Positions 28,902 to 57,908 of a DNA stretch of 64,000 nucleotides are shown here, piece after piece. Every line of letters begins with the position of its first letter. Position 1 is the first letter of the stretch. The stretch spans positions 682,001 to 746,000 of the forward strand of contig NZ_FTNW01000002.1 of assembly GCF_900156545.1 (NCBI RefSeq), read 5' to 3'. The position numbers and the translations under genes are program-made. Under the pieces are notes generated by a model. It was given only the letters and a program-made list of their open reading frames with translations, did no database searches and was not told the DNA's origin. Source of the DNA: Aquipseudomonas alcaligenes (lineage in GTDB: Bacteria; Pseudomonadota; Gammaproteobacteria; Pseudomonadales; Pseudomonadaceae).

Positions 28902-31223
28902 CTAGTCGCCGAGCTGGAACTCGACCCGCGCCGTTGCCCCACTCTGGTCCAGCAGACTGAGCTGATACAGCCCGCTCGCCGTGAGCTTCTGCTCGATGCT
29001 CTCGCCGGGCTGACTTTCGGCCACCGGCCTGCCATTGAGGAACCACCAGCGCGTGCCGCTACCACCGAGGGCCGATAGCTTGAGTTGCAGAGGCCCGGCG
29101 CTGCTGGCCGGACGCCGCAGGCGATCCCCCTCGCGTACCCCGACGATGGACAGCGGCGCCGCCGGTAGCGGCAATGCCGGCGGGCACTCGGCCGAAGCCG
29201 CCGGCAACCGCGCGGCACGCCGCTCGCGGCGTGGCAGCCAGGGCTCCAGTGGCGCCGGCCACAGGGCAATCTGGCTTTCCCGCGCGCCTTCGCAGCTGGC
29301 CGCCACCTGCCGGCCATGCGCATCCAGCCAGAAGCGCTGACTCAAGCCCAGGCCCAGCGGCTGATCGGCGGCCTGCAGGGTCGGCGGCACGGTGCCATCC
29401 AGGGTCCAGGCGAAGCGCTGGCGCCGGCAGTTGGGGTCGTCGCGGGCCAGTTCCTGGCCCAATGGCCAGCAGATCGCCGCCACACCGATGCTCGCCGGCA
29501 CCGTCTGCACCGGCGGCGCCAGGCCACGCTGGCGGTCGCGGTTGACCAGCAGGTCGTGCACCTGCAGCAGCAATGGCGCGGCCGAAGCCAGGCCGAACTG
29601 GCCGGGCACCGGGGTGCCGTCCGGGCGACCGATCCACACCCCGATCAGATGGCGCGGGCCAACACCGATGGCCCAGGCATCGCGGAAGCCGTAGCTGGTG
29701 CCGGTCTTCCAGGCCAATACGGGACGCTGCACCAGCTCGGCGCGCGGGTCACGGTCCGGCCGCGCCTGCCCGGCAAGAATGCGCCGCACTATCCAGGCCG
29801 ATCCGGGCGAGAGCAAACGCCGCTCGTGCAGTGCGTCCTGCGGTTGCAGCCGTGGCCGCGCGGCCAAGCCATTGCGGGCGAAGGCACTATAGCCAGCCAC
29901 CAGCTCTTCCAGGCGGCTGCCGGCGCCGCCGAGGATCAGCGCCAGGTTCGGCTCGGCGCCGGCCGGCAGCGCCAGCGGCACGCCGGCGCCGCGCAGCTCG
30001 CCGGCGAAGCGCTTCGGCCCGAAGGCCTCCAGCAGCTGCACGGCGGGTAGATTGAGCGAGGTGGCCAGGGCCTCACTGGCCGACACCGGGCCGATGAAAC
30101 CGGCGGCAAAGTTGCCCGGCCGGTAGTCGCCGTAGCGCCGCGGCACATCCTGCAGCAGCGACTCGGAATGGATCAACCCGGCGTCCATGGCCAGACCGTA
30201 GAGGAACGGCTTCAGGGTGGAGCCGGGCGAGCGCTGGGCGCGGATCATATCGACATGGCCGTAGCGCTTGTCGTCGCCGACATCCAGCGAGCCGAGGTAG
30301 GCGCGTACCGCCATGCTCTCGCTGTCGACCACCAGGATGGCCGCCGAAGTGCGCTCCGGCAGGCGCGCGCGCCAGCCCAGCAGCAGGTCTTCCAGACGTC
30401 GCTGCAGATTGGCATCGAGGGTGGTGCGGATCAGCGGCGGGCTGCCCGCCACGTTCAACCGTCGCGCCAGCAGCGGCGCCAGGTTGGGTTCCTGGCGCGG
30501 CGCCAGCAACACCGGCTCCTGCAGCGCCTCGTCCACCGCCGCCTGCGACCATTGCGCGAATTGCGCCATACGCCGTAGCACCTTGTCCCGCGCGGCCTGG
30601 GCGCGTTCGGGATGACGGTCCGGACGCAGCCTGCTGGGCGCCTGCGGCAGCACGGCGAGCAACGCCGCCTCGGCGCGGGTCAGCTGGCTCGGCGGCTTGC
30701 CCAGGTAGGCCCAACTGGCCGCCGCCACGCCCTGCAGGGTGCCACCGAAGGGCGCGCGGTTGAGGTAGAGGGCGAGGATTTCGTCCTTGGGCAGGTGCCA
30801 CTCCAGCTGCAGGGTGCGCCACAGCTGCTTGAGCTTGCCGGCGAAGGTCCGCTCGTGTGGGTCGAGCAGGCGCGCCACCTGCATCGACAGGGTGCTGCCA
30901 CCGGACAGCACGCGCCCGCCGGACAGGTTCTGCCAGGCGGCACGCCCAAGGGCCAGCGGGTTGACCCCGGGGTGCTGGTAGAACCAGCGGTCCTCATAGG
31001 TCAGCAGCGCCTCGAGGTAATAGGGCGAAACCTCCTCCGGCGCCACCGGATAGCGCCACACGCCGTCGGTATCGGCGAAGCGCCACAGCGGCGTGCCATC
31101 CTCGGCCAGCACCACGCGGGCCAGGCCGTCCTCGGGCAACGGCAGCGGGAACAGGCGATCGGCCAGCCACAGCAGCGCCAGCGGCAGAGCAAGCAGTGCC
31201 AGCCTGCGCCGCCAACGCTTCAT
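28902..31223 (-). CDS. pbpC: Penicillin-binding protein 1C
   Basis: A 773-aa class A peptidoglycan synthase with an N-terminal membrane anchor (about 5-25). Glycosyltransferase domain: catalytic Glu77 (YEDRWFYQHPGV) and GGSTLSMQVARLL. Transpeptidase: Ser335-x-x-Lys338 (SPGSTLKPF) and Lys506-Thr-Gly. A C-terminal BiPBP-type domain (about 685-773) is present. PbpC is coupled in many bacteria with a periplasmic alpha-2-macroglobulin, thought to protect the cell after wall and membrane damage; that gene lies on the same strand 1.1 kb upstream here. Confidence 0.95.
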   Translation of the reverse strand: MKRWRRRLALLALPLALLWLADRLFPLPLPEDGLARVVLAEDGTPLWRFADTDGVWRYPVAPEEVSPYYLEALLTYEDRWFYQHPGVNPLALGRAAWQNLSGGRVLSGGSTLSMQVARLLDPHERTFAGKLKQLWRTLQLEWHLPKDEILALYLNRAPFGGTLQGVAAASWAYLGKPPSQLTRAEAALLAVLPQAPSRLRPDRHPERAQAARDKVLRRMAQFAQWSQAAVDEALQEPVLLAPRQEPNLAPLLARRLNVAGSPPLIRTTLDANLQRRLEDLLLGWRARLPERTSAAILVVDSESMAVRAYLGSLDVGDDKRYGHVDMIRAQRSPGSTLKPFLYGLAMDAGLIHSESLLQDVPRRYGDYRPGNFAAGFIGPVSASEALATSLNLPAVQLLEAFGPKRFAGELRGAGVPLALPAGAEPNLALILGGAGSRLEELVAGYSAFARNGLAARPRLQPQDALHERRLLSPGSAWIVRRILAGQARPDRDPRAELVQRPVLAWKTGTSYGFRDAWAIGVGPRHLIGVWIGRPDGTPVPGQFGLASAAPLLLQVHDLLVNRDRQRGLAPPVQTVPASIGVAAICWPLGQELARDDPNCRRQRFAWTLDGTVPPTLQAADQPLGLGLSQRFWLDAHGRQVAASCEGARESQIALWPAPLEPWLPRRERRAARLPAASAECPPALPLPAAPLSIVGVREGDRLRRPASSAGPLQLKLSALGGSGTRWWFLNGRPVAESQPGESIEQKLTASGLYQLSLLDQSGATARVEFQLGD

Positions 31224-31255
31224 CGCCGGCCCTCGCTGCGCATGGGACGCTGGCT

Positions 31256-31594
31256 ATGGCATGCTGGTCGGCAACTCTTAGCGGCACTGTGGGTATTCAT
31301 ACCTTGATCCAAGACTTCTTCGAATGGCTGGGGCATGCCCTCGGCACCCTGATCCGCTTCATCGTCGAGGCCCTCAGCGGCTTCTTCGGATTCTTCGCCG
31401 ACATCGGCCGCAGCTTCCTCGACGGCATGGCGTCGGCGCTGGGCACCAATGTCGGCCTGCTCAGCATCGTCGCCATGGTCTGCGGCCTGTTGCTGCTCTA
31501 CGCTGCCGTCCGTGCCGGCATGCGCAAGGCTTTCGTGCGCATGGTGGTCTATGGGTTGCTGGGATTGTGGTTGTTGAGTTTGATTGTGAGTTGA
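31256..31594 (+). CDS. Small hypothetical membrane protein
   Basis: About 112 aa from the ATG at 31256; a GTG at 31289 (101 aa) is an alternative, as neither has a strong ribosome binding site. The pattern is an amphipathic N-terminal segment (LIQDFFEWLGHALGTLIRFIVEALSGFFGFFADIGRSF) and a C-terminal membrane helix (LSIVAMVCGLLLLYAAVRAG) plus a second hydrophobic end. It is divergent from pbpC, sharing the short gap. I do not recognise a named family. It could be an envelope-stress or pore-forming small protein; this is guesswork. Confidence 0.6.
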   Translation: MACWSATLSGTVGIHTLIQDFFEWLGHALGTLIRFIVEALSGFFGFFADIGRSFLDGMASALGTNVGLLSIVAMVCGLLLLYAAVRAGMRKAFVRMVVYGLLGLWLLSLIVS

Positions 31595-31611
31595 GCAGCA
31601 CTCAAGGCCCT

Positions 31612-31672
31612 GTAGCCCGGATGCAATCCGGGGAAGCAGGCAACTCCGCTCCCGGATTTCATCCGGGCTACG
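31612..31672. repeat. REP pair (BIME), copy A
   Basis: Two REP units in inverted orientation: GTAG then CCCGGATGCAATCCGGG (31612-31632), and the complement CCCGGATTTCATCCGGG then CTAC (31651-31671). Each unit has the GTAG head plus a hairpin that defines RAYT-associated REPs. It abuts the 3' end of the RAYT gene. Confidence 0.9.
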
Positions 31673-31695
31673 ACCTAGGCAGCCTGCGCGATAAC

Positions 31696-32220
31696 TCACT
31701 CCCCCGTGCGATCTATCAGGCCGTCGCTCCCGCACCAATCAACGGGTAACAATCCGCGCGCCACATAGCGGTGAAAGCTGGACAACGGCCAGTCGCATAC
31801 TCGACCGACCAGGCCGTGCTTGAGCGGATTGACATGGATGTAATCGACGTGCGCGACGAAATCCGCCTCATCTCGTATCAAGTGCTCCCAGAAACGGCGC
31901 TGCCAGATATTTGCCTCGCCTTTCTCGTTAAGCACCACCGGAAAACTCCTGTCGCGTAGGGCTCGAACGAATAACGATTTGAGTCGGCGGACTCTGCAGG
32001 AAAAATCGGCATCGCCCTCAGGCAGCTGCATCAGCAGATGCAGGTGATCGGGCAATATCACCGCTGCAGGTATCTGAAACGGTCGCTCGCAAATGGTCTG
32101 CCTTATTGCATCGCGAAGTTCATCGCTATGCCGTACCAACCAGTCCTGGGTTCGATCTTGCAGAGCCAGCGTCAGAAAATAACAGGCGCCCTCGATCCGA
32201 GCGCGCCGGTAATTGACCAT
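31696..32220 (-). mobile_element. REP-associated tyrosine transposase (RAYT)
   Basis: A 174-aa Y1-type HUH transposase. The metal-binding HUH motif is His59-Leu-His61 (DHLHLLMQLP); IWQRRFWEHLIRD and the catalytic-tyrosine segment DYIHVNPLKHGLV (Tyr127) are canonical for RAYTs. RAYTs recognise GTAG-headed REP hairpins and spread them round the genome as single-strand intermediates. The gene is intact and flanked on both sides by inverted REP pairs (31612-31672 and 32264-32322). It sits between pbpC and the alpha-2-macroglobulin gene. Confidence 0.93.
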
Positions 32221-32263
32221 CGACTAGACCTCCTTGTCCGGTGTTTTTCAGAGTGCCCCGGCC

Positions 32264-32322
32264 GTAGCCCGGATACAATCCGTGAACCAGGCGGCTCCGC
32301 CCCCGGATTACATCCGGGCTAC
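32264..32322. repeat. REP pair (BIME), copy B
   Basis: GTAG plus CCCGGATACAATCCG (32264-32282, slightly degenerate right arm) and the complement CCCGGATTACATCCGGG plus CTAC (32302-32322). It lies upstream of the RAYT start, pairing with copy A to flank the transposase. Confidence 0.9.
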
Positions 32323-32332
32323 GCAAACCCAC

Positions 32333-35300
32333 TCAGCGCTCGCGCACCACCAGCTGCGCCGGTGCGGCGCCCACCGCGTTCCACGCCGGGCGATACATCG
32401 ACTCCACCTGCGGCGGCGGCACCCGGTAGGTGCCGGGGGTAACGGCGCGGGCCAGGTACAGCAGGTGGGTGGTGTCGTAGCCGTTCACGTCCAGGGCCGC
32501 GACGAAGCGATCATCACGGAACTCCTGGTGCTTGATCGCGGCGTTCTGCATCGACTTCTGCCATTCCTTCACCGCGCTGCTGGCGTCGTCCAGGCTGGCG
32601 GCGCTCTGCGCCAGGTTCTGGTTCTCCAGTTCCAGGCCGGCCGGCAGCAGGTCCACCACCAGAGCGTCGGGCACCCGTTCCTCGGCACGTACCGCCAGGT
32701 GCACCAGCACCAGCTGGCCGCTGGCTAGGTTGTTCAGGTCCAGCGGGCGACCGTCCAGGCCGTAGAAGCCGCGCTCGATACTGAGGTTATTGCCGCGCGC
32801 CGCCAGGGCGGCGGTCGGGTAGCCGGAAATGGTCAGCTGCTGGTAGAGCTTGTCGGCGAAGCCGGTGCTCAGGCTCAGCGGCTCGCTCAGGCTGGCGCCC
32901 TCCAGCTTCACCGCCGGCTGGCCGTTGCTCAGCTCGCGCACCTGGCCGCCGGCTTCGAGCACGGCGTTCCAGCTCTTCTCCGGAGTCTTGATCAGGCCGC
33001 GGCCAGCGAGGAACAGCGCGTTGCGCTCCTGGGTCGACAGGTAGTCCTGCACGGCGCGCTCCTCGGCCAGGCTGAACAGCAGCTGGTCGCGGCTGCTGGC
33101 GGCCAGGTCGTTCTCCTCCAGCAGGGCGTAGATCAGCGCCTGGTCGCGCAGCGGGCTGCCGTAGTCGGCCAGCCACTCCTGGCGCTGGCGGCCGAGCCCC
33201 AGGCCGAGGGCCAGGGCCTCGTCGGCGCGCGGCTTGTCACCCATTTTCTGCAGGGCCACGGCCAGCTGCACCAGCGGCAGACCGGACTTGGCGTCGCCAC
33301 GGCGGTCGTACAGTGCGCGCAGGCTGCCCAGCGGCGCCTGCTGACTGCGCGCCAGCACCAGGCCGGCGTAGGCCTGCACGGCGAAGCGGGTGTGGTCGAG
33401 GTTGTCGCTGTAGCCGACGTCGACCAGCTGGCGATCCTGCAGGTAGCGCAGCAGGCGTTCACTGGCCTTCTCCAGCGCCTCCGGCGGCACGGCGAAGCCC
33501 TGCTCGCGGGCGCGCAGGAGGAAGTCGGTGACGTAGGCGGTCAGCCAGAACTCCTCGTCGCTGTCCGAACCCCACAGGCCGAAGCTGCCGTTGTAGCGCT
33601 GCATGCCGAGCAGGCGCTCGATGCCGATCTCGATGGAGTTGCGCCGTTTCTCTTCCGGCTCGCCTTCCAGGCCGAGTTTCTTCAGCGTCGCCGCGTCCGC
33701 GTAGAGCGACGGATACAGGCCGCTGGTGGTCTGCTCCAGGCAGCCGTAGGGATAGGCTTTGAGCGCCTGGATCTGCTCGGCCAGGTTCAGCGGCGGACGG
33801 CTGGAGACGCTCAGCAGCGCCTCGCGCCCGGCCGGCTCGAAGGCGGCCAGGGTGCCGGCTGGCAGCTGCCAACTGTCGCCCTGCAGTACGCTGCGCAGGT
33901 GCTTCTGCTGCGCCGGCCAGGCCGAGCGCACGCCGATGCGCCACTCGCGGCTGAAGGCCGGCAGGTTCTCGCCCGGCAGGCTCAGGCCGTTGACCTTGAC
34001 CCGCAGCACGCCGGCGCCGTAGCCGCCAACGGCACGCACCGGAATGCGCAGGGTCTGGCGCTGGGCCTGGTCGAGAGTCAGTGGCGCGCTGTGGCCGGCA
34101 GGGTCCGCCAGGCTCAGCTGGCCTTCGGCCTCGATCTGCACCTCGAGTTTCTGTGCAGCACCGGACAGGTTGGTCAGGTCCAGGGCCACACTGGTCTCAT
34201 CGCCACCGGCGAGGAAGCGCGGCGCCGACAGCTCGGCCACCAGCGGCGCGGCGACCACCGTCTTGCCCTCGCCCATGCCATAGCGCTCGTCGGTCCAGGC
34301 CTGGGCCATCAGGCGCAGTTCGCCGTTGAAATCGGGGATGTCCAGGCTGACGTCGCCTTCGCCCTGGGCGTTCAGCTCGATCGGCACGCTCTGCAGCGCG
34401 ACTATGGTGACGCTGGTATCCGGGCGCTTGCCGCCCTTAGCCAGCGCCGCGTCGCCACCGAAGGCCAGCTTGGCCAGGCGACCCTGGCCGGCCTCGATCA
34501 GTTGGCCGTAGACATCGAGCTGGTCGACACCGTAGGCCTTGCGGCCGAACAGCTCGGCGAACGGGTCAGGCGTCTGGTATTCGGTGATATTGAGGATGCC
34601 GACGTCCACCGCCGCCACCAGTACATTGACCTTCTGCGCCGGGCTGCCGTCGGCGTTCTTCGCCTGCACCCTGACCTTCAGCGGCTGCTGCGGACGCATC
34701 TTATCCGGCGCAGTCAGGCTGACCTGCAGCTGGCGTGGCGCGCGGTCGAACGGCAGGTGCAGCAGGCCCACGGCGCGCTTGGGCGTGGCACCTGCCTTGC
34801 GTTCGCCGGGACGGATGACCAGGGCACTGACGTACAGGTCATGCCGCGCCCAGTCCTTGGCCAGCGGGATATCGAAGCTCTTGCCCTCGGCGGGCACCTC
34901 GATTTCCTGCCACCACAGCGGACCGTCGCTGGATTCGACCATCAGGTAGCCGCTGCCGGCGGCCGGCGGGGTGACGGTGACCGTGGCCGTATCGCCGGCA
35001 GCATAGGCGGGCTTGTCCAGCGCCAGCTTGACCTGGTCCGGGCGCACCGCGCCGCCTTCGGTGTTGTCCTGCCAGGAGTAGCCGGCCCAGAAGCGCAGGC
35101 TGCTGGTGAGACCGGTCTCGGGGTCGGTGACTTCCACGCGGTACGGTCCCCACTCCACCGGGAAGCTGACCTTGGCAGTGCCACCGGCAGCAACCTTGAT
35201 GCCCTCTTCACCCAAGTTGAGGAACTTCTCGTTGTAGTGGTAGTTCCAGCCCTCGCTCTCCGAGAAGCTCCAGTAGTAGTCGCGGCGTTCGCGGATCAGG

Positions 35301-37237
35301 CGTACCTGCAGGTTGTCGCTGGCCAGCTTGTTGCCGGCCGGGTCGGCCAGCAGCACTTCGAATTCAGCCAGGCCGTCGCCATCCACATTGTCGCCGTCGA
35401 ACAGACCGCGCAGGCCCGGCAGGCGCTCGGCCGGCCACACCGGCTGCACCAGGCGGCGGGTGATCGGGCGACCGCCAGATTCCTGCAGGCTGGCCTGGAG
35501 GATCAGCTGCAGCGGCGACTTGGCCTCGGCCCAGCGATTCTCCACGCCAACCGTGGCCCTGCCCTGAGCGTCCAGGGTGGTTTCTTCCAGCTCCAGGTCC
35601 TGACTCAGTTCCTCCTCGGTGACCGAGCCGAACTGGTAGCCGGGCAGCGCCTTGACCGCCTCGCGCAGCGGACGCACGTAAACCTGGCCGGTGAGGCGAT
35701 TGCCGGAAGCCGGCGCGCCATAGAGGTAGCGGCCTTCGACCTGGAAGCGTGCGGCGTCGCTCGGCCTGATCGGGTTGTCGCTGCCTTTCAGCTCCAGGGC
35801 CAGGCGCTCGGGGAGGAAGTCCTCGACGAGGAATTCATGGACCTGCTGGCGACCGCCGCCGAAGTCGAACAGCAGTTGCCAGCGCCCGGTCGGCGCCTCG
35901 CCGGCCAGTTGCAGCTGGTACTGGTACAGACCGTTGTCACCGGGCTGCCAGACGAACTTGCGGCTGACCTGCTCGTCCGGCCGGCGCACTTCCACGTTGA
36001 CCGGTTGCGGCTTCACCGCGCGGCCATCGGCGTCGCGCAGCAGGGCGTTGAGCAGCACGCGCTCGCCCGGGCGATACAGGTCGCGCGGGCCGAACACGAA
36101 GAACTGCAGCGGGTTGGCCACCGGGCCGGCGATGTCGAACTCGGCCAGGTCCAGGGCCGGGCTGCCGAGGTTGAGCAGACTGGTCTGCTCGCCCTGGCGG
36201 GCCAGCACCACGGCGGCCTTGTCCGGTAGTGGCAGTTCGGCGTGGCCGGCATCGTCAGTCTTGGCGCTGGCCAGCACCTGGCCGTTGCCACCGAGCAGTT
36301 CGATCTCCACGCCCTCCAGCGCCTGACCACCTTCCAGGGCCTGGGCGAAGGCATCCAGGCGGCCGTGGTAGCGGTGCACGGACAGGCCGATGTCGCTCAA
36401 GGTGAACAGGGTCGCCGGCTGCGAATAGTTGTAGGTACCGGCCTGGCGCATCACCGCCAGGTACACGCCGGGCTGCTTGAACGGCGCCAGGCCGGCGATC
36501 GGCAGCAGCAGGGTCTCGCGGGTGTTGCGCGCCGGGTTGAGGTCGAAGCGACCGCTGTAGACCAGTTCGGCCATCGGCAGCAGCTCGCGCGACTGCCAGG
36601 TATCCAGGTTGGAGCTACGGCCCCACTGGGCGAGGAAGTTGGGTAGCGACTCCTGCTTGATGCGGAAGAACTCGACGTTGACCTTGTCGACGTTCAGCGC
36701 GATCACCGGCAGGCCCTCGGCCAGGCGAGTCGGCAACAGCGAGCCGCGGCTGGCGAAGCCGACGCTGGGCTGCAGGTCGCGGGTATCGAGACTGGTGTTG
36801 TACTTGGCGGCCAGTTCGCTGCCGTTGATCGCGCGCAGGCCAGGGTCGATGGACAGCACCAGGCTGCGCCGTGGCTCCAGGTGGCGCAGACGCAGCTCCA
36901 TCAGGTTGTCGGAGAGTTCCCAGGCGCCATCGACCTTGCCGGTCTTCTTGTCCACCAGGTGCAACCTGGCGGCGAAATCCTGCTCCGGGTCCAGCGGCAC
37001 GCTGAAGCTCACCGACAGGGTGCTGGCGCCATCCAGCTGCACTTCCGAGGCATCCGCCACGCTCAGTTCGCGGCCGGCATAGCGCTTGGCCAGCTCGGCC
37101 TTGTCCAGCGCCGGGCGGGCCGCCTCCTGCTGCGCGGCCGGCTTGCCGGAGGGGGCGGCGGGCGTCTCGGGAGTGGAGGAATCGCAGGCGCTCAGCAGAG
37201 CGAGCGCGGCGGCCAGAAACAATCCTTTGTACGACAT
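32333..37237 (-). CDS. Bacterial alpha-2-macroglobulin lipoprotein (YfhM/ECAM type)
   Basis: A 1634-aa lipoprotein (lipobox LLSAC, Cys18) of the family size. Macroglobulin-like beta domains fill the first two thirds. The thioester site Cys1166-Leu-Glu-Gln1169 (YPYGCLEQ) is intact, so it should trap proteases covalently. A helical complement-like domain follows and a receptor-type C-terminal domain ends the protein. In E. coli the homologous gene yfhM precedes pbpC; here both are on the same strand but separated by the RAYT region and a small opposite-strand gene. A TATAGT -10 candidate lies at 37274-37279. Confidence 0.95.
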   Translation of the reverse strand: MSYKGLFLAAALALLSACDSSTPETPAAPSGKPAAQQEAARPALDKAELAKRYAGRELSVADASEVQLDGASTLSVSFSVPLDPEQDFAARLHLVDKKTGKVDGAWELSDNLMELRLRHLEPRRSLVLSIDPGLRAINGSELAAKYNTSLDTRDLQPSVGFASRGSLLPTRLAEGLPVIALNVDKVNVEFFRIKQESLPNFLAQWGRSSNLDTWQSRELLPMAELVYSGRFDLNPARNTRETLLLPIAGLAPFKQPGVYLAVMRQAGTYNYSQPATLFTLSDIGLSVHRYHGRLDAFAQALEGGQALEGVEIELLGGNGQVLASAKTDDAGHAELPLPDKAAVVLARQGEQTSLLNLGSPALDLAEFDIAGPVANPLQFFVFGPRDLYRPGERVLLNALLRDADGRAVKPQPVNVEVRRPDEQVSRKFVWQPGDNGLYQYQLQLAGEAPTGRWQLLFDFGGGRQQVHEFLVEDFLPERLALELKGSDNPIRPSDAARFQVEGRYLYGAPASGNRLTGQVYVRPLREAVKALPGYQFGSVTEEELSQDLELEETTLDAQGRATVGVENRWAEAKSPLQLILQASLQESGGRPITRRLVQPVWPAERLPGLRGLFDGDNVDGDGLAEFEVLLADPAGNKLASDNLQVRLIRERRDYYWSFSESEGWNYHYNEKFLNLGEEGIKVAAGGTAKVSFPVEWGPYRVEVTDPETGLTSSLRFWAGYSWQDNTEGGAVRPDQVKLALDKPAYAAGDTATVTVTPPAAGSGYLMVESSDGPLWWQEIEVPAEGKSFDIPLAKDWARHDLYVSALVIRPGERKAGATPKRAVGLLHLPFDRAPRQLQVSLTAPDKMRPQQPLKVRVQAKNADGSPAQKVNVLVAAVDVGILNITEYQTPDPFAELFGRKAYGVDQLDVYGQLIEAGQGRLAKLAFGGDAALAKGGKRPDTSVTIVALQSVPIELNAQGEGDVSLDIPDFNGELRLMAQAWTDERYGMGEGKTVVAAPLVAELSAPRFLAGGDETSVALDLTNLSGAAQKLEVQIEAEGQLSLADPAGHSAPLTLDQAQRQTLRIPVRAVGGYGAGVLRVKVNGLSLPGENLPAFSREWRIGVRSAWPAQQKHLRSVLQGDSWQLPAGTLAAFEPAGREALLSVSSRPPLNLAEQIQALKAYPYGCLEQTTSGLYPSLYADAATLKKLGLEGEPEEKRRNSIEIGIERLLGMQRYNGSFGLWGSDSDEEFWLTAYVTDFLLRAREQGFAVPPEALEKASERLLRYLQDRQLVDVGYSDNLDHTRFAVQAYAGLVLARSQQAPLGSLRALYDRRGDAKSGLPLVQLAVALQKMGDKPRADEALALGLGLGRQRQEWLADYGSPLRDQALIYALLEENDLAASSRDQLLFSLAEERAVQDYLSTQERNALFLAGRGLIKTPEKSWNAVLEAGGQVRELSNGQPAVKLEGASLSEPLSLSTGFADKLYQQLTISGYPTAALAARGNNLSIERGFYGLDGRPLDLNNLASGQLVLVHLAVRAEERVPDALVVDLLPAGLELENQNLAQSAASLDDASSAVKEWQKSMQNAAIKHQEFRDDRFVAALDVNGYDTTHLLYLARAVTPGTYRVPPPQVESMYRPAWNAVGAAPAQLVVRER

Positions 37238-39407: not shown

Positions 39408-39458
39408 GTAGCCCGGATGCAATCCGGGAGCGGCCTCCCCGGATTGCATCCGGGCTAC
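39408..39458. repeat. REP pair (BIME), copy C
   Basis: GTAG plus CCCGGATGCAATCCGGG (39408-39428) and its exact complement ending in CTAC (39438-39458), separated by 9 bp. It starts 8 bp after the DUF2214 stop. Confidence 0.9.
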
Positions 39459-57848: not shown

Positions 57849-57908
57849 GTAGCCCGGATAAAATCCGGGGACACCCCACTCAAAAGCCCCGGATTGCATC
57901 CGGGCTAC
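57849..57908. repeat. REP pair (BIME), copy D
   Basis: GTAG plus CCCGGATAAAATCCGGG (57849-57869) and the complement CCCGGATTGCATCCGGG plus CTAC (57888-57908). It lies in the purH-purD gap and ends 16 bp before the purD ATG, next to its ribosome binding site. Confidence 0.9.

Follow-up and report, generated by a model that had tools for sequence, protein, structure and literature searches.

RAYTs (REP-associated tyrosine transposases, TnpA_REP) are described in PMC8266576 as enzymes that cleave their REPs, and a clade-specific association between RAYTs and REPs has been described before (PMC3686654, PMC6006769). An open question of the field, modelled in PMC8049555, is what allows RAYTs and REPINs to persist, neither taking over the genome nor disappearing from it. 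Regarding the expression of the transposase, it is suggested in PMC3733652 that REP hairpins may lower RAYT translation. The words "ribosome" and "Shine" are absent from the main text of that paper, as well as from the main texts of PMC2817692, PMC8266576, PMC6006769, PMC3686654 and PMC3116915.

A second body of work concerns the Rsm (CsrA) proteins. As described in PMC6849547, their consensus is A/U-CANGGANG-U/A with the GGA in a penta- or hexaloop, and an Rsm site lying over the start codon of cfcR from P. putida was verified there by binding and mutation. RsmQ binds AnGGA best when it is placed in hairpin loops, and RsmE bound well only ATGGA and AGGGA in one assay with ssDNA hairpins, both according to PMC9928087. 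In addition, transposase activity is predicted in a preprint (PMC12889724) to be enriched among the Csr/Rsm targets of nonpathogens. No link between RAYTs and CsrA/Rsm was found in the literature searched, with supplements and most subscription papers out of reach, and such a link may be reported elsewhere.

The DNA analysed here (the window) is a stretch of 64,000 nucleotides from Aquipseudomonas alcaligenes, with a RAYT gene located between pbpC and the alpha-2-macroglobulin (A2M) gene (Table 1). By the organisation of its sequence, the locus is a REPtron, having a resident RAYT between two REPINs and related REPINs scattered by the dozen over the rest of the genome, an arrangement that is in itself already known. 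The protein matches the NCBIfam model NF047646 (REP-associated tyrosine transposase) with 175.9 bits, the cut-off being 80. In the PDB, it has a single match at E <= 0.001, E. coli TnpArep (4ER8, E = 1.4e-43), which aligns to its residues 2-165. In this alignment, the HUH motif PDHLHLL and the tyrosine motif HVDYIHVN are kept, as are W94, Q95, E100, H101 and R104, all residues named in PMC6006769. With the HUH motif, a single catalytic tyrosine and a family-model score above the cut-off, the gene belongs to the RAYT/TnpA_REP family. Its own genome holds one match to the protein, in keeping with the one copy per RAYT type that marks a RAYT; the second Y1_Tnp match in this genome belongs to another gene (L009, G000:C3:164373). 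By inspection, L009 carries GGCAA-AAGGAGC-TTGCC directly 5' of an ATG, a version with a 7-nt loop of the same kind of hairpin as that of the RAYT leaders treated below. When compared with P. alcaligenes NBRC 14159, the window RAYT has a dN/dS of 0.0076/0.042, about 0.18, and is under purifying selection.

Table 1. Features of the window discussed in the text, in window positions.
Feature	Position	Strand	Remarks
pbpC	28902-31223		Neighbour of the RAYT gap
Small gene in the A2M-pbpC gap	about 31289-31594	plus	Start codon uncertain; seems part of an exchanged block
REPIN A	31612-31671	none	Two GTAG REPs, heads out; 3' side of RAYT
RAYT (TnpA_REP)	31696-32220	minus	174 aa, ATG start, intact HUH and tyrosine
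RAYT leader hairpin	32223-32242	minus	Loop AAGGAG 32235-32230 (Shine-Dalgarno); ATG at 32220
Arms of the window hairpin	GGAC 32239-32236, GTCT 32229-32226	minus	Followed by a C/A mismatch and two more pairs
REPIN B	32264-32322	none	5' side of RAYT
A2M gene	32333-37237		Neighbour of the RAYT gap
REPIN C	39408-39458	none	Site also filled in G378, empty in G013
REPIN D	57849-57908	none	G013 and G378 carry an other-class REP at the site

The REP unit consists of GTAG followed by a perfect 7-bp stem with a 3-nt loop. All eight half-units of REPINs A-D match GTAGCCCGGATNNNATCCG with 0 mismatches, and the GTG that replaces GGG at the inner end of one half of REPIN B lies outside this 19-nt pattern. 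Allowing up to three mismatches, the window has 10 matches, against 0.54 expected from shuffles. Genome-wide, 80 exact units are found (41 on the plus and 39 on the minus strand), compared to 0 for the reversed-pattern control, and among 66 units with up to two mismatches, read in 21 own-genome stretches picked around REP sites, 60 form heads-out inverted pairs and six are unpaired. Thus, the dispersed unit is a pair of inverted REPs, as defines a REPIN, and the gene is bordered by GTAG-headed inverted REPs abundant in its genome, as is required of a RAYT. A preliminary description of the locus had proposed a Y1 transposase of 174 residues with a full HUH site and tyrosine, lying between pbpC and the A2M gene and bracketed by the GTAG-headed pairs A and B, the unit of which recurs in C and D; all of this is borne out by the family model, the structural alignment, the neighbouring genes and the eight matching half-units. 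It had also held that few genomic copies of the unit, or REPs of another family beside this RAYT, would speak against it; the genome search gave the 80 exact copies, and the flanking REPINs and the genomic units belong to the same family.

The exact unit is present in 29 of 199 genomes of the genus, and most of the RAYT clades read have at their borders a palindrome of their own, which by inspection is GTAG-headed in most cases. The nearest RAYT relatives outside the A2M-pbpC gap, L174 (G180) and L175 (G014), are flanked by REPs in which the GTAGCCCG start is kept and the hairpin contains a longer insert; such REPs may be an intermediate in a change of REP class. Elsewhere in the own genome, REP matches follow one another every 197 nt (161521, 161718, 161915 and 162112) in G000:C4:161369-162177, a tandem array holding REPs. 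An Rfam scan of window positions 31500-32500 returned three microRNA families below their gathering scores, located on REPIN A, which were taken as chance.

The unexpected part of the locus is the leader hairpin, which the preliminary description had left unmentioned, as it had the small plus-strand gene of the gap. RAYT leaders can fold around their own Shine-Dalgarno, directly 5' of the start codon, with the loop ANGGAN, while the letters of the stem vary by clade: GGAC-AAGGAG-GTCT in the window, CCAGAC-AGGGAG-GTCTGG in L014, CTGCA-AAGGAC-TGCAG in L024, CACAAC-AAGGAC-GTTGTG in L172 and GCTC-AAGGAT-GAGC in L191. The leader set covers 148 starts from 121 distinct proteins. Forty-four leaders, one row per distinct 30-nt leader, come from the genus loci together with L071, L072, L092 and L110, with a protein that starts with two to three residues followed by YRR; 72 others are non-Pseudomonas, the remainder being duplicates or starts anchored in the wrong place. 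Of these 44 leaders, 34 have a strict hexaloop NNGGAN on a stem of 4 bp or longer, compared to 6 of 245 control genes taken from the own genome and two relatives by our own ORF calls, some with wrong starts (Fisher p = 3.6e-29, relatedness being ignored). After clustering of the leaders, the stem is still present in 12 of 17 clusters at 70% identity and in 7 of 9 at 60%. An earlier control with a loose loop (27 genes, 8 with a stem of at least 4 bp) discriminated poorly and was replaced by these strict-register controls.

The pairing itself was read with an anchor chosen regardless of pairing. From pair 1 to pair 5, standard pairing is seen in 41, 41, 37, 39 and 24 of the 44 leaders, respectively, and slid arms gave 3-24 of 44 for pairs 1-4. 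Among 39 distinct rows, 82.1% of the cells are paired versus 46.2% after shuffling, and covariation is 0.838 versus 0.200, a value reached in 0 of 500 shuffles; doubly changed pairs, in contrast, are about as many in these rows as after shuffling (5 versus 4.8) and have no discriminating value. Where the stem has at least 3 bp (37 leaders), loop position 1 is A in 36, compared to 83 of 257 control genes, position 2 is free (A28 T3 G3 C3), and 31 have C-G as the closing pair. The predicted pair probability exceeds 0.5 in 20 of the 44 leaders (median 0.34) and in 1 of 257 controls. Outside Pseudomonas, RAYT leaders are not enriched, with 8 of the 28 that have a GGA (72 in all) against a shuffle mean of 6.7.

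The window's own hairpin lacks this stability, as its stem carries the C/A mismatch and its predicted pair probability is 0.008. In L071, the near relative from which the genus is taken to be Pseudomonas and whose RAYT is 98% identical to that of the window, the near-identical copy is perfect over 7 bp and reaches only 0.08 in the same context, although it dominates when a shorter stretch is folded. As the window hairpin is predicted to be weak, the case rests on the leaders of its relatives, and the window RAYT copy may be partly released from control.

Throughout the genus, RAYT leaders have a conserved hairpin with ANGGA in its loop, located at the ribosome-binding site or over the start codon, as expected of CsrA/Rsm targets, and this match to the consensus makes the RAYT leader hairpin a predicted binding site for proteins of the CsrA family. 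A gene of this family is found in the own genome (G000:C10:199812-199970) and in 8 of 8 genomes searched. RAYT translation in the genus is thus probably under Rsm control. The preference of RsmE for ATGGA and AGGGA counts against the Rsm reading, since the RAYT loops are mostly AAGGA (28 of 37).

The same word recurs in a second RAYT type with about 35% identity to the window RAYT, presumably group 3 of Bertels. At E up to 1e-20, 130 of 149 genomes have this type, and the own genome lacks it. ANGGA stands directly 5' of the ATG in 30 of 40 leaders of this group, versus 1 of 469 control genes, the 9 leaders without GGA directly before the chosen ATG being scored as misses; its second position is again variable (A10 T8 G6 C6), and clustering leaves 15 of 24 (70%) and 10 of 17 (60%). 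Twenty-six of the 40 have a hexaloop stem of 4 bp or more, with a shuffle mean of 1.3 and a maximum of 5 over 300 rounds. In this group, the GGA abuts the start codon, away from the Shine-Dalgarno spacing, the AUG lies in the loop and stem, and a Shine-Dalgarno-like word is found further upstream in 12 of 31 leaders. Stem covariation is modest here, with 78.5% of cells paired versus 73.6% shuffled and a covariation of 0.289 versus 0.206.

The reading that we favour, with somewhat better than even confidence, is that these two distant Pseudomonas RAYT groups are under Rsm (CsrA) translational control by way of a start-site hairpin with ANGGA, and that Gac/Rsm would thereby switch the copying of REPINs. 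Rsm bound at the leader hairpin would keep ribosomes from entering at the RAYT Shine-Dalgarno in the window type and at the AUG in the second group. Gac-induced small RNAs would draw Rsm away, and it is mainly then that the transposase would be produced and REPINs would be copied. Both the copying of REPINs by RAYTs and the titration of Rsm by Gac-induced RNAs are premises taken from the literature.

An alternative that is unlikely, although it deserves weighing, is that the leader hairpin acts as a protein-free brake on the Shine-Dalgarno or the start codon, keeping the transposase low with no part for Rsm. The positions of these elements within the hairpins of both groups agree with it, and hairpins are discussed as brakes on the translation of IS200 and RAYT in PMC3733652. 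However, a protein-free brake needs neither an A at loop position 1 with position 2 left free nor an ANGGA placed against the AUG, where the GGA of the second group is not at the spacing of a Shine-Dalgarno, and a Shine-Dalgarno borne in the loop of a stem of 4-7 bp is only weakly hidden. Self-repression is doubtful to a greater degree: the RAYT would bind its own leader hairpin, the stems following the specificity of the RAYT of each clade. RAYTs do bind hairpins, and the leader stems differ by RAYT clade, but the leader hairpins have no GTAG foot and bear no resemblance to the REP of their own clade, and it is the loop that is conserved across distant groups, not the stem.

The history of the locus bears on a further reading, that of the preliminary description, in which a self-contained REPtron has recently been active at the window site. 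A related RAYT occupies the A2M-pbpC gap in 12 of the 22 loci read, other species among them and one copy apparently frameshifted, in a non-random sample made of the window, P. alcaligenes NBRC 14159 and 20 chosen loci; some RAYT-bearing gap loci have only 73-75% A2M identity. In the close relatives G013 and G378, the element is absent from the gap, as the preliminary description had proposed to check. A RAYT tree built without L019/L167 (G008, apparently frameshifted) and the partial L038 places 11 gap rows on one side of one branch, with weak support (60/54), and a better supported group (99/94) around them adds one row, L072. A single origin of the gap RAYT takes one change on the tree and is recovered in 66% of 200 bootstrap trees. 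It is possible that the RAYT has had one old residence in the gap, which the tree allows and does not show. In L167 (G008:C1, about 1632384), the gap RAYT is split over two frames near codon 27 and is apparently broken.

Sequence divergence in this region is uneven. Compared with NBRC 14159, the dS of the RAYT is 0.04, while those of A2M and pbpC are 0.16 and 0.24; compared with G054, the RAYT reaches 1.58 and the flanks 0.32 and 0.38, respectively. As the RAYT value is clearly below its flanks in one pair and far above them in the other, recombination fits better than movement of the unit. The small gap gene, of which the longer ORF (31196-31594) has no match in Pfam, is 94% identical to that of G148 and 45% identical to those of G013 and G378, whereas A2M is closer to G013/G378 than to G148; having its nearest relatives in more distant genomes and not in the close ones is a sign of recombination. 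The mismatch between RAYT and flanks and the identities of the small gene together suggest that the intergenic block was exchanged by recombination.

The REPINs were also compared by site, using 124 kb of own sequence with four REPINs outside the RAYT gap and the relatives G013 and G378. Three of the four, namely C and two REPINs outside the window, are shared with G378 site for site. At site D, the remaining one, both G013 (C43, about 136004-136087) and G378 (C1, about 486787-486901) carry a REP of another class (GTAGGGTGGATAACG...), and this intergenic position is, on the sequences compared, one reused by different REP classes. In G013, two of the compared sites are free of REPs and a third carries a lone REP. 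The A2M-pbpC gap of G378 is without a RAYT, and the two RAYTs of this genome adjoin other REP classes. Because G378 keeps the REPIN sites and 167 relaxed REP matches without a gap RAYT, near-identical halves need not mean recent insertion.

Recent activity was rejected after this comparison. An intact RAYT, near-identical REP halves, 80 exact units and a gap RAYT missing in G013 and G378 speak for it; against it stand the related RAYTs in the same gap of the chosen loci, their weakly supported grouping on one side of one branch, the sites shared with G378 and a dS pattern that fits recombination, so that a recently active, self-contained REPtron is very unlikely. The preliminary description had read recent activity from the shared unit, some halves of which are identical, a reading that the shared sites and the purifying selection on the RAYT do not bear out; its "self-contained" REPtron stands as a RAYT with REPIN flanks, and is weakened in its self-containment by the better fit of a block exchange.

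A simple rule by which these REPs follow this RAYT was rejected as well. Relaxed REP counts in 24 chosen genomes, which are upper bounds since the pattern also counts shadow matches of the palindrome on the other strand, include 162 in G000, 6 in G013, 167 in G378, 344 in G333, 121 in G392, 386 in G012, 331 in G113 and 443 in G078. No RAYT of the window clade was found among the RAYTs classified in G378, G333, G392, G012, G113 and G078, a classification that left out, among others, L209 of G392 and three of four close G078 matches. The window RAYT clade is found in only part of the genomes with many copies of the exact unit, and more than 100 such REPs occur in some relatives with no window-clade RAYT found. 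The dependence of the REPs on the window RAYT is therefore not strict. G013, which is almost free of REPs of this class (its six relaxed matches) and has no RAYT above the family cut-off and clean empty sites, offers a natural near-REP-free comparison strain.

The remaining reading of the leaders, an accident of shared descent combined with a Shine-Dalgarno, is highly improbable: the leaders do come from related genes, and the Fisher test and pair counts ignore the tree, but the pairing holds while the stem letters change between clades, and the feature recurs in another register in the distant second group.

If Rsm control of RAYT translation is true, a host switch on the transposase would be a concrete answer to how REPINs stay in check, and the birth rate of a genome-wide repeat family would be tied to a host signalling pathway, the Gac/Rsm life-style regulator. 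Mobile repeats would then join the Gac/Rsm regulon, which in turn suggests a condition for catching REPIN movement in the laboratory.

Among known systems, the locus can be set beside the E. coli rayT REPtron (4ER8), with which it shares the HUH motif and tyrosine, the GTAG-contact residues, the borders of GTAG-headed inverted REPs and the many genomic REPs. The REPs of the E. coli subclass (group 2/2.2), in the majority description of PMC6006769 and also in PMC8266576, have longer, irregular stems with mispairs, unlike the perfect 7-bp stem and 3-nt loop of the window REP, which is more like the REP of S. maltophilia as described in those two papers. By inspection, the E. coli rayT leader has no hairpin of the kind seen in Pseudomonas RAYT leaders. 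As in the REPINs described in PMC3116915 and PMC8049555, an inverted REP pair is the dispersed unit and the RAYT is a resident gene; here, however, an other-class REP lies at site D in relatives, and many units occur without an identified window-clade RAYT. At the level of RNA, the transposase message of ISPpu9 from P. putida is under RNA-level control (PMC8450116), and transposase regions of ISPpu8, also from P. putida, were recovered with Rsm proteins (PMC7937890, whose main text names RAYT in 0 places); both are insertion sequences, not RAYTs. The RAYT leaders resemble the control of the cfcR type by CsrA/RsmA (PMC6849547) in that the ANGGA is carried by a hairpin loop located at the ribosome-binding site or over the start codon, and they differ from the known CsrA/RsmA targets in that the putative target is a REP transposase.
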